Shown piece after piece: positions 38,281-42,427 of a DNA stretch of 64,000 nucleotides. Within the stretch, counting starts at the first letter, position 1. The number at the start of each line of letters is the position of its first letter. Origin of the DNA: Cyclobacteriaceae bacterium (GTDB taxonomy: Bacteria > Bacteroidota > Bacteroidia > Cytophagales > Cyclobacteriaceae); contig JAGQYI010000047.1 in the NCBI GenBank assembly GCA_020436165.1, positions 1 through 64,000 of the forward strand. The letters run 5' to 3'. A program made the position numbers and the translations under genes. The notes beneath the pieces were generated by a model. The model was not told where the DNA came from. It made no database searches and was given only the letters and a program-made list of their open reading frames with translations.

Positions 38281-39012
38281 TCAGAATGTATAATTTGTTT
38301 TAAAAAGAATATTTTTCATTAATCGTTCTTCTTTTGTAGTACTATTAATAGTCCATCCCCATCCATTTTCTCTTGTTGTTATTACTTTTTGCAGTTGATA
38401 CCCTATCCCTACTGAAAAGTGACCGGCTTGGATTCCAATTGTGTTTCGTACAAACCAGCCACCTTCTGTACTTAGCGCCTCGTTACTTGCCGTTTGTTCA
38501 GCAAACGACCAGCCTGCATCGAGTGCGTAAAAGGGTGTTACACGTTTTTGCGACACCAATCCTTTGAAGCGCGCATAAACCGGAACGAATACTACATCAT
38601 TGTTAAAGAAAAAAAACATGGGCTCAACCCCAATACCAGTACTGATGTATGGATTAAACCTGTAGTTCAAAGAAGCTCCCAGCTCCATTCCGGCCCTTGG
38701 AGATCCTCCGTATTGCGAAGCCTGTCCGAATACAAAAGCAAAAGAACCATCCCAAAACAACCCATCATTTCTTTGGTATTTGCTCCTGTAACTAAAACCA
38801 TCCTGCTTAATGGATACTATTGCTGAGTATGCAATTGTAGCTTCCTGATTTCCAGGAAGCTCAACCTTGATGTAATCGCCAGGTATGTTCTCGATGATGA
38901 GCACATGCAGTTCAGAACCATCCTTGAGTTTCACCTTGCTCATGTTCTTTGTGTCTTGTGCCCAAACTGCTGCTGAGCAAAGAATAGCTATCAATAAACT
39001 TAAAACTCTCAT
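38281..39012 (-). CDS. outer-membrane beta-barrel-like protein
   Basis: A 243-residue protein with signal peptide (MRVLSLLIAILCSAAVWAQ). A short N-terminal beta domain (residues 22-80, VKLKDGSELHVLII) precedes alternating aromatic strands typical of a small eight-strand barrel (YRFNPYISTGIGVEPMFFF, FSVGIGYQLQKV). It ends in the aromatic FKTNYTF. It overlaps the lipoprotein gene by 4 nt, so it is translated from the same mRNA and belongs to the ECF block. Confidence 0.8.
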   Translation of the reverse strand: MRVLSLLIAILCSAAVWAQDTKNMSKVKLKDGSELHVLIIENIPGDYIKVELPGNQEATIAYSAIVSIKQDGFSYRSKYQRNDGLFWDGSFAFVFGQASQYGGSPRAGMELGASLNYRFNPYISTGIGVEPMFFFFNNDVVFVPVYARFKGLVSQKRVTPFYALDAGWSFAEQTASNEALSTEGGWFVRNTIGIQAGHFSVGIGYQLQKVITTRENGWGWTINSTTKEERLMKNILFKTNYTF

Positions 39013-40328
39013 TGGTTGCCGGAAGGTATTAAGCTCAATAATTTAATCTCATCCACATTGGTGTAATCAAACTGATAAAGCCCATCGTTTCCGGTCAGGA
39101 TTAACGTTCCTTTGTTAGGTATAACGTCATAGGCATTGAAACCGGTAAGGTGTTGTATCATGTTTTCGTCAATTTTTGACACGTCCGTGATATCAAAAAC
39201 CTTCAATCCATTGTCACCTTCGGTTACAAAAAGCGTGTTGCCATCCAACCCTAAACCATAAGGACTTGTCATATTAAACTCGTAAAGAAGTTTGGCATTG
39301 GTTACATCGGTAATATCTATTACATCCAGCTGGTTGGTAAAGGTGTTGCCGCACCAGTTGTTGTTATTGTCGGTAGATCGAAGGGTGACAAAAGCATAGG
39401 TGTCGTTAGCAACTACCGGGTCGCAGGTGGTAATATGGCTTACCGATGACATGTACTGAGGCTGGGCCGGGTTGTCTATGTTGTAAACAAACATACCCGA
39501 CTGAGAACCAATAAACAGATTGTTTTTGTAGGGGAAAATAGTTTCAATATTCCAGCCAAGGTCTATGGTTGATTCATCTACCGGGTTATCCCCTGAAGTA
39601 ACATTAAATACATGCATTTGATACATATCAACAGCGTATAGGTAAGAATCAACAATGGCAAAACGTGCCATGGAACCACCGGTACCAACAGTTGGGCCTC
39701 CCACGCTATTGATTTTGGCTGCATCAAAGGCTACCAGATCTTCAGCCATCCATAGTACTCCCGGGCTGTTATCAGCACAGTCTTGCGAAACTTCAACGGT
39801 TTCCTGTTCTTCCATATCAACAATTATTAGATTGTTGCTGGCGCTAAAACCAAACTGAGTGTTGTACGAAGGAAACACATCTTCCAATCTGTTTACAAGT
39901 GTAATGTTGGCTGGGTTTGTTATATCAAAAACCAACAGATCGATGTAGCTATCTGCATATAATTTACCATTTCGAACAGCCATATCATGGTTTCCGGGAA
40001 TATTTATAAAAGACAGATTAACGGGATTGGATTCATCTGAATTATCAAAAATATGAATCCCCTTATCCGGTTCTCCTAAAAAGAGGTAGTGCCCGTAAAT
40101 GTAAATTTTGCCTTGTTCTTCCCAGTTTTGGGCAGGGAGTATTTCTACTTCTGTCCTAAGGTCCGACATATTAGCATAAACAGGAGAGTAAGTTATGTAC
40201 GTTACCGTGGTTTTACAGGTATCTCCACAACCGGTTAACAACAGAAAAATAACAAGTGCTGCTACCAATACTCCTGTTGAAACAGAAAGAAACCTTAGTC
40301 TGGGGCTTGTTTTGGATAAATTATTCAT
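39009..40328 (-). CDS. LVIVD-repeat lipoprotein
   Basis: A 439-residue lipoprotein with lipobox L-T-G-C. It has repeated blades of the LVIVD/beta-propeller type, for example GIHIFDNSDESNPVNLSFINI, DLLVFDITNPANITLVNRL and VFDITDVSKIDENMI (about seven units). These propellers are normally protein-interaction surfaces at the outer membrane. It overlaps the next gene by 4 nt and is preceded by its own copy of the ECF-type promoter (40356-40386). Together with the beta-barrel gene it is the likely target of the sigma factor encoded upstream. Confidence 0.88.
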   Translation of the reverse strand: MNNLSKTSPRLRFLSVSTGVLVAALVIFLLLTGCGDTCKTTVTYITYSPVYANMSDLRTEVEILPAQNWEEQGKIYIYGHYLFLGEPDKGIHIFDNSDESNPVNLSFINIPGNHDMAVRNGKLYADSYIDLLVFDITNPANITLVNRLEDVFPSYNTQFGFSASNNLIIVDMEEQETVEVSQDCADNSPGVLWMAEDLVAFDAAKINSVGGPTVGTGGSMARFAIVDSYLYAVDMYQMHVFNVTSGDNPVDESTIDLGWNIETIFPYKNNLFIGSQSGMFVYNIDNPAQPQYMSSVSHITTCDPVVANDTYAFVTLRSTDNNNNWCGNTFTNQLDVIDITDVTNAKLLYEFNMTSPYGLGLDGNTLFVTEGDNGLKVFDITDVSKIDENMIQHLTGFNAYDVIPNKGTLILTGNDGLYQFDYTNVDEIKLLSLIPSGNQ

Positions 40329-40370
40329 GAGTAGTGTGTTTTCGATGTTTGTCAGTTAGACACACTACTC
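40329..40370. promoter_or_regulatory. 11-bp inverted repeat abutting the LVIVD start codon
   Basis: GAGTAGTGTGT (40329-40339) and ACACACTACTC (40360-40370) are perfect complements with a 20-nt loop. One arm ends at the base next to the ATG at 40328; the other overlaps the downstream part of the promoter at 40356-40386. In mRNA reading through from the upstream genes both arms are present. In transcripts from the local promoter only the arm next to the ATG remains. Confidence 0.5.
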
Positions 40371-40386
40371 AATTGATTGGTTGGAA
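40356..40386 (-). promoter_or_regulatory. ECF-type promoter, copy B
   Basis: On the minus strand TTCCAACCAAT, 11 nt, TGTGTCTAA. It is identical in both conserved blocks and in spacing to copy A at 42397-42427. CCAACC is 17 nt from GTCTAA, a usual -35/-10 distance for ECF sigma factors. It lies 27 nt upstream of the LVIVD gene ATG. Confidence 0.75.
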
Positions 40387-40392
40387 TGTAGA

Positions 40393-41820
40393 TTATTTTA
40401 TTTTGTAGAAAAGAATAATACCCACTGTAAAAGAGGATGGATAATACTCTTTGCTTTCGTCTATAGCGGTTAGACCTTTTCTGTATCCTGTTTCAAAAGC
40501 AATGGAGTATTGATTGTTCAAACTATAACTTAGGTCTATTGTAGCAACTCCACCCAATAGCAACCGTTGGTAGTTCTGCTCTTCAGGTGAGTAGGATGCA
40601 TTGCCATACGCTTCAGAGCTGATCTTATGCGAAAGCATGAAATCAGTTGAAACTCCAAGTCCGCCTCTAAGCATCACTCTTTTGTTTATGAAGGGGTACT
40701 TAAAGGCAACAGGAACGCTCAGGTAGCTATTGGTTACGCTGTATTCATAAGAGTTGCTTAAAAAGGAAGTTCCCGCAACAATAGGGGCATAGGCACCCAG
40801 CGGCTTTTCAACTCCTTCGCTTTCAAATATAAGATCGCTTGTACCCATAGCGTGCTGTGCCCGATAGCCCAAACCCGTAAGAAGCGACCATTTTTTGCCC
40901 AAAGGAAATTCAACACCAGCTCCAATGTAATAAGCTGTACCGGGGTTTTCAGAACGTTCTGTAGTGTTTTTGTTTACATCGTTTAAATTGGGAGTTTGGT
41001 CGTTGGCAAATAGAGCCTCCGCAAATGAACCACCCGGAGGATTGTTAGAAACACTACCGGTTCCCATGTTAAGCGAAGCCAACAGATTGGTTCCTTTAAA
41101 CTTGTCCTTTTCAATTGGCATAAAATAGGGAACAAAATAATAGCTCTCAATCTCAGAAAGGCGCGTAGTGCCAAGTCTGGAAAGCTCAATAGAACCATTT
41201 GCTTCGGTTTGTTTCAGGCTATTAGTTGCCAATATCTGGTTATTCGCTGTTGGGTTATCAGCAAATTGTGTCTTGGCGATTATTGTTTGAGCATTAACTG
41301 CGTTTTGATTTTTGTTAGCCGTTGATTCGTTTAATTGTTTATTGTTAGTTGCTAATTGCTCATTGGCTATTGGTGTTAGGGTGTTTTGGTTCGTGGGACT
41401 TTGGCTTGATGCGTTATTTGTGACTTGGTTTTTGTCCTTTGATAACTCCTTTAATTGTTTATTGCTAATTGCTAATTGCTCATTGGTTATTGGTGTTATG
41501 GTGTTTTGGTTCGTAGGACTTTGGCTTGATGCATTATTTGTGACTTGGTTTTTGTTATTTATGATTTGGTCAGTTGGTTCCGTTGCTTGCCCAATTTGAA
41601 TGTTATGATTTGGTTGTGCATTGTAATCTAATGTGCCCATGCTTAAGGGTATCGCAAAAGCAATAGAAATGGTGGCTGCAATTAAGAGCAGGGTTACCCA
41701 ATAATTGCGTCCTCGATCAGTATCCATACTGGAGGCAATGTTGTTCCAAAGTGCCTCTGAAGGCTCAATGGTGGCTCCTGCCATGGCTTCCTGCCAGCTA
41801 TGTTCGTATGTGCCGTTCAT
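40393..41820 (-). CDS. anti-sigma-like/transmembrane/beta-barrel fusion protein
   Basis: A 475-residue protein in four parts. Residues 1-38 are cytosolic with the Trp-containing pattern EPSEALWNNIASSMD seen at the start of Bacteroidota anti-sigma partners. Residues 39-63 are a transmembrane helix. Residues about 66-250 are Asn/Gln/Thr-rich and low-complexity, with two 40-residue tandem repeats. Residues about 290-475 look like a beta-barrel (GAGVEFPLGKKWSLLTGLGYR, VAFKYPFINKRVMLRGGLGV). It overlaps the sigma gene by 4 nt. There is no cleavable signal, so the N-terminus should stay in the cytoplasm. Confidence 0.85.
   Translation of the reverse strand: MNGTYEHSWQEAMAGATIEPSEALWNNIASSMDTDRGRNYWVTLLLIAATISIAFAIPLSMGTLDYNAQPNHNIQIGQATEPTDQIINNKNQVTNNASSQSPTNQNTITPITNEQLAISNKQLKELSKDKNQVTNNASSQSPTNQNTLTPIANEQLATNNKQLNESTANKNQNAVNAQTIIAKTQFADNPTANNQILATNSLKQTEANGSIELSRLGTTRLSEIESYYFVPYFMPIEKDKFKGTNLLASLNMGTGSVSNNPPGGSFAEALFANDQTPNLNDVNKNTTERSENPGTAYYIGAGVEFPLGKKWSLLTGLGYRAQHAMGTSDLIFESEGVEKPLGAYAPIVAGTSFLSNSYEYSVTNSYLSVPVAFKYPFINKRVMLRGGLGVSTDFMLSHKISSEAYGNASYSPEEQNYQRLLLGGVATIDLSYSLNNQYSIAFETGYRKGLTAIDESKEYYPSSFTVGIILFYKIK
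41331..41570. repeat. two 120-bp tandem repeats inside the fusion gene
   Basis: Two near-identical 120-bp units (41331-41450 and 41451-41570) differ at only a few bases and encode the repeat KNQVTNNASSQSPTNQNT plus an NEQLA-x-x-NKQL segment. The unit is a multiple of three, so changes in copy number keep the frame. A short degenerate echo (NQILATNSLKQ) lies on the C-terminal side. Confidence 0.85.
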
Positions 41821-42377
41821 ATTGCTTTCCTTTTTGTTTTGGCATCTTCCGATAAAATAATTTCCTGTAATAACTGCTTGGCCCTGAAGTACTGACTTTT
41901 CGAAGTTCCCATACTAATGTTAATCATATCAGCTATTTCCTTGTGCGAGTAACCTTCGAGTGCGTACAGGTTAAAAACCGTTCGGCACCCATCGGGCAAT
42001 TGTTGAATAAAGGCGATTAGCTCTGTATAATGAAAGCTTTCAAGAGGCAAACTGGTGGTATCGTGTACCTCTTCCGCCTCCATTATATTCCATTGGTACT
42101 TTTGATGCTCTTTGCGCAATGCATTTAATGCCGTGTTAATTACAATGCGTGTAAGCCAGGTTTTTAATGCCGATTGCTGGTTAAATGAAGCGAGGTTTTT
42201 GTATGCTTTAATAAAAGCATCCTGCAGAACATCTTCTGCTTCCTGCTTTGTTTTCATATAACGCATAGCCACAGCCATTAGCTCACCTGCAAATCGAGTA
42301 TAGAGCTCCCGATAGGCCGTACGATCTCCATCGTAGCACTTCTGAATTAAATCTTGCTCATAAGGGCTTATCGGCAT
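41817..42377 (-). CDS. ECF-type RNA polymerase sigma factor
   Basis: A 186-residue sigma-70 factor with region 2 (DRTAYRELYTRFAGELMAVAMRYMKTKQEAEDVLQDAFIKAY, with the DxLQD/F core) and region 4 (LPDGCRTVFNLYALEGYSHKEIADMINISMGTSKSQYFRAK), separated by the short linker typical of ECF factors. No region 1.1 or 3. It overlaps the anti-sigma-like fusion gene by 4 nt. A copy of the putative ECF promoter lies 19 nt before its ATG, so it likely activates itself. Confidence 0.95.
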   Translation of the reverse strand: MPISPYEQDLIQKCYDGDRTAYRELYTRFAGELMAVAMRYMKTKQEAEDVLQDAFIKAYKNLASFNQQSALKTWLTRIVINTALNALRKEHQKYQWNIMEAEEVHDTTSLPLESFHYTELIAFIQQLPDGCRTVFNLYALEGYSHKEIADMINISMGTSKSQYFRAKQLLQEIILSEDAKTKRKAI

Positions 42378-42396
42378 GCCTCTATTACTCGATTAC

Positions 42397-42427
42397 TTAG
42401 ACACAGGTTGCGGCCCATTGGTTGGAA
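42397..42427 (-). promoter_or_regulatory. ECF-type promoter, copy A
   Basis: On the minus strand TTCCAACCAAT, 11 nt of unrelated sequence, TGTGTCTAA. Both blocks and the 31-bp length match copy B exactly while the middle 11 nt differ. That pattern argues for selection on the two boxes and against duplication of the DNA. It is upstream of the sigma gene itself. Confidence 0.75.

Follow-up and report, generated by a model that had tools for sequence, protein, structure and literature searches.

In RpoE/RseA, an ECF sigma factor is paired with an anti-sigma factor that crosses the inner membrane once, and the sigma factor activates its own expression. FecI and FecR are a sigma factor and an anti-sigma factor under outer-membrane control. 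The closest described systems are Das/Dma, in which an ECF21 sigma factor is paired with a dual membrane-spanning anti-sigma factor (PMC13088901); they have only recently been described, in gut Bacteroides, and few of their direct targets are known. In Bacteroides thetaiotaomicron, members of the Dma family have an N-terminal sigma-binding domain, one transmembrane helix, a disordered variable tether, and a C-terminal barrel (PMC13088901). Deletion of dma2 in this species strongly raised the expression of das2 and neighboring genes (PMC13088901), the response that an autoregulated unit should give.

We used sequence analysis and comparison among related genomes to evaluate a four-gene locus in a 64,000-nucleotide stretch of a Cyclobacteriaceae genome (hereafter, the window). 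The locus is very probably a Das/Dma-type regulatory operon of the cell envelope that activates itself. Its genes are as follows:

41817..42377, minus strand: ECF sigma factor, 186 aa, with Sigma70_r2 and r4_2 and without r3 (PF04542, 1.2e-18; PF08281, 2.8e-14)
40393..41820, minus strand: Dma-type anti-sigma factor, 475 aa, assigned by domain and sequence-layout analysis
39009..40328, minus strand: LVIVD-repeat lipoprotein, 439 aa (PF08309, 7.2e-8; lipobox LLTGC; N-terminus MNNLSKTSPRLRFLSVSTGVLVAALVIFLLLTGCGD)
38281..39012, minus strand: small signal-peptide protein (brl2), 243 aa, a probable outer-membrane barrel judging from its sequence

The initial annotation had all four genes joined by 4-nt overlaps. 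This is correct for the sigma/anti-sigma junction (41817-41820) and the lipoprotein/small-barrel junction (39009-39012) but not for the anti-sigma and lipoprotein genes, which are separated by a 64-nt gap housing the second of two promoter sites, P2. The sigma factor has the organization of an ECF protein, with region 2 at residues 25-90, region 4 at residues 119-170, and no region 3 within its 186 residues, and it scored 95.5 bits against TIGR02937 (sigma70-ECF; cut-off 42.9). A relative with 85% identity is found in Cyclobacteriaceae bacterium HKST-UBA62. The Bacteroidota context and Dma neighbor of the sigma factor agree with a possible placement in the ECF21 subgroup. Pfam searches matched no family to the small barrel protein, and a PDB sequence search with the LVIVD lipoprotein returned no useful match.

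The anti-sigma factor can be divided into an N-terminal domain (residues 1-41), a transmembrane helix (~42-60), an N/Q/T-rich tether (~69-228), and a barrel (283-453) that matches PF13568 (OMP_b-brl_2, 6.2e-13). The N-terminus is conserved, with W25 invariant among 16 members, and matched no Pfam anti-sigma model. The only hydropathy peak above 1.6 comes from 19-residue windows starting at residues 39-46. The tether, about 160 residues rich in N, T, and Q, is hypervariable with large gaps among relatives, and its composition suggests that it is disordered. A 120-bp (40-aa) tandem unit within the tether (41330-41555; 1.9 copies, 94% match) is absent in the nearest relative, and tether length thus appears to vary through duplication. 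AlphaFold models of the small barrel and the anti-sigma factor built from two-sequence alignments were unusable (mean pLDDT 26.5 and 34.1), so the fold assignments for both proteins rest on sequence profiles and layout; a profile of the anti-sigma factor had 0 matches in the PDB sequence search. The layout matches that of the published Dma family, in keeping with the trans-envelope reading of the initial annotation, and the protein is predicted to span both membranes as a sensor of known kind.

Three more sigma/anti-sigma pairs are encoded in this genome, on contigs C45, C84, and C70 (L217-L219), and their anti-sigma factors are short (183-233 aa) and without a barrel. These pairs, together with the unusable model, would be compatible with an ordinary inner-membrane anti-sigma factor whose C-terminal barrel-like part stops short of the outer membrane. 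We consider this unlikely given the PF13568 match, a hypervariable tether flanked by two conserved ends, and the same layout in the published family.

The locus shares with RpoE/RseA an ECF sigma factor, a one-pass inner-membrane anti-sigma factor, and autoactivation (the latter two predicted here). RseA, however, has no barrel and is released by DegS/RseP proteolysis, whereas the present gene set includes no protease gene. The resemblance to FecI/FecR-type cell-surface signaling (PMC9249621) lies in the control of a sigma factor and its anti-sigma factor from the outer membrane; there, a separate TonB-dependent receptor signals to the anti-sigma factor, while here the barrel is fused to it. 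The likeness is closest for Das/Dma (PMC13088901), with adjacent sigma and anti-sigma genes and a matching predicted anti-sigma layout, although the rise of the operon and its neighbors upon anti-sigma deletion is an experimental result in B. thetaiotaomicron and the behavior of the present operon is read from its sequence. The downstream genes also differ, being BT_1555-1557 in B. thetaiotaomicron (an enzyme-like protein and DUF4858/DUF4943 proteins) and the LVIVD lipoprotein and small barrel here. Furthermore, the published text never uses the word "motif" and uses "promoter" once (PMC13088901), whereas a promoter signature can be described for the present locus from the following two sites:

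42397..42427, minus strand: P1, predicted ECF promoter TTCCAACC-N17-GTCTAA, an exact genome-wide match with site equivalents in relatives
40356..40386, minus strand: P2, predicted ECF promoter TTCCAACC-N17-GTCTAA, in the 64-nt gap preceding the lipoprotein gene

Both 31-bp sites are exact matches with 17-nt spacing at the positions first proposed for them; they are identical at TTCCAACCAAT and TGTGTCTAA and unlike in between. As also proposed, one precedes the sigma gene and the other the lipoprotein gene, with P1 ending 19 nt and P2 27 nt ahead of the respective ATG. The concern that the motif might be equally frequent elsewhere was not borne out by our scan of the 3.8-Mb genome, where P1 and P2 were the two exact matches to TCCAACC-N17-GTCTAA and the reversed control had none. 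Allowing up to one mismatch gave three matches, and the degenerate pattern TTNCAACYN17GTCWAA likewise gave three, versus one in the control. Matches at three mismatches within the window were at chance level (10 found versus a mean of 6.3 expected), so the weight falls on the two perfect sites.

The third near-match, TTACAACC-N17-GTCTAA (G000:C10:66688-66718, L003), lies on another contig, 28 nt ahead of a gene for a 158-aa lipoprotein. An equivalent site is absent at the sole homologue of this gene in the genus, and we treat the near-match as only a lead to a possible third regulon member. One relative (G193) has 13 exact TCCAACC-N17-GTCTAA sites, with 0 in the control, and is predicted to have a much larger regulon.

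We then evaluated the conservation of the sites in related loci, most of which were gathered by similarity to the anti-sigma factor (family level) or the LVIVD lipoprotein (class level). This selection was blind to the motif except for L122-L124, which were added from a motif scan and did not affect the result. Of 71 related sigma genes, 63 were preceded by the search core, CAAC-N19-TC, which is equivalent to exactly 17 nt separating the two hexamers. Where sigma, Dma, and LVIVD genes occur together (33 loci), the core preceded 29 of the sigma genes and 26 of the LVIVD genes, compared with 0-6 of 33 at control spacings of 12-16 and 18-22 (average ~2/33, or ~5% of regions). The corresponding binomial values (< 1e-25) were computed with related loci as independent, and shared descent inflates the counts. 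Of 30 LVIVD genes located away from any Dma, 9 had a site at the 17-nt spacing, versus ~1.6 at other spacings. The recurrence of paired sites at a fixed 17-nt spacing in many genera supports the earlier proposal of an autoregulated ECF unit.

Two transcription units sharing a 31-bp upstream site would present the same picture whatever factor bound there, and the genome encodes about 20 sigma proteins bearing region 4. The two sites could thus be operators of a separate DNA-binding regulator, with the sigma factor acting elsewhere. We regard this as very improbable, since the half-sites, the invariant 17-nt spacing, and the AAC upstream and GTC downstream have the shape of an ECF promoter, and since both sites vary together, in step with the family of the sigma factor. 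In the 22 loci with both sites, the promoter letters outside the core agreed 171 times within loci versus 143.6 when re-paired (sd 5.6; 0 of 20000 shuffles). Agreement within loci was also found for the family of the window alone (p=0.017), where co-variation was weaker than between families. For example, ATGCAACC...GCATCT is found at both sites in one family (f25; L176, L178, L180) and GCAACG or GCAACC...TTGTCA at both sites in another (f37; L184, L194). The other sigma/anti-sigma pairs of this genome (L217-L219) bear related but different upstream variants, such as ATGCAACC...TATCTA or sites with an apparent 16-nt spacing.

Coordinated change of P1 and P2 across families is expected if one sigma factor reads both. 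The simplest reading is therefore that a single sigma factor recognizes both promoters and would drag both along while evolving. When sigma residues were ranked by how well they track the promoter letters, positions such as N85, R88, S155, and G157, which lie within or close to regions 2.4 and 4.2, came out high; with few independent events, this is suggestive only. It could instead be that P2 is read by another ECF sigma factor of the genome and that the LVIVD-barrel pair is a neighbor and not a target; related sigma factors of this genome use similar sites, and crosstalk among Dma systems has been proposed in B. thetaiotaomicron (PMC13088901). We find this improbable as well, because all constrained letters are the same in P2 as in P1, the remaining pairs show GCAACC or an apparent 16-nt spacing, and P1 and P2 co-vary across families.

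The genes themselves are also linked. Sigma and Dma genes are paired in nearly all related loci, LVIVD lies downstream of Dma in a large share of them, and sigma, Dma, LVIVD, and brl2 are clustered in other families too, even when rearranged. LVIVD and the small barrel adjoin in many families, either in tandem or head to head; two loci (L208, L212) have the small barrel at the front of a barrel-sigma-Dma operon, with LVIVD divergent. Given the sites at fixed 17-nt spacing, their co-variation, the gene linkage, and the Dma layout, the reading of the set as one regulated unit is well supported. The initial annotation had proposed, as an inference, that the set forms one sensing unit; the single regulated unit holds up, and the sensing of a signal is inferred.

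We propose that the anti-sigma factor would hold the ECF sigma factor through its cytoplasmic N-terminal domain, while the remainder would pass the inner membrane once, cross the periplasm as a disordered tether, and end as a barrel in the outer membrane. Some change at the outer membrane would free the sigma factor. Transcription from P1 would then yield both sigma and anti-sigma, giving autoactivation plus renewed restraint, and transcription from P2 would yield the LVIVD lipoprotein and small barrel as the local output. The sensor type is already known, whereas the promoter code and the lasting LVIVD/small-barrel linkage seem new; none of the open-licence papers searched yielded the promoter signature, the second internal promoter, or the LVIVD/small-barrel output. 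With a sequence-readable promoter signature that shifts by family with its sigma factor, direct targets of Dma systems would be predictable across Bacteroidota without experiments, and the recurrent LVIVD-lipoprotein/small-barrel pair offers specific candidates for the outputs or partners of a sensor spanning both membranes.

P2 additionally overlaps a potential RNA hairpin at the start of the lipoprotein gene:

40329..40370, minus strand: 11-bp perfect inverted repeat (arms 40360-40370 and 40329-40339), linking the P2 spacer/-10 with the sequence immediately upstream of the lipoprotein ATG; lineage-specific

One arm, GAGTAGTGTGT, lies in the P2 spacer/-10 and its exact complement, ACACACTACTC, directly before the ATG. 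In read-through RNA, the predicted fold pairs the lipoprotein start codon (-17.6 kcal/mol, z -4.9), while RNA starting at P2 would be without the left arm. Of the 23 loci evaluated (mean z -0.36), the window and the locus of its nearest relative were the only two to score, and the hairpin was rejected as a general control at P2. The nearest relative retains 7 bp with one compensating change (p=0.003 in a two-arm test), although by whole-fold energy it is no better than shuffles (z -1.1). From these two genomes, the hairpin could confine lipoprotein synthesis to times of sigma activation. A more speculative and rather unlikely extension is that the Dma barrel itself has the LVIVD lipoprotein and small barrel as partners, which would rise from P2, bind at the outer membrane, and reset or tune the sensor as feedback via the envelope, with the hairpin in this genus also confining lipoprotein translation to P2-born mRNA.

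Of 68 Dma loci, 35 are without LVIVD. This distribution forces at least 8 changes on the sigma tree, and such scattered linkage suggests that LVIVD is a recurrent, losable, and replaceable output. Several LVIVD-less loci still have P2 directly downstream of dma, ahead of a short or unrelated lipoprotein gene. In three of these (L105, L109, L085), the next gene encodes a lipoprotein of only 66-86 aa; it looks as though these loci had dropped the LVIVD part but kept the promoter and signal peptide. In about 20 genomes (L155-L174, class-level LVIVD homologues), two adjacent genes take the place of the single LVIVD lipoprotein gene. A start, a signal sequence, and a lipobox cysteine of its own are present in each half, which makes them two lipoproteins and excludes a programmed frameshift; the arrangement is either gene fission or an ancestral pair.
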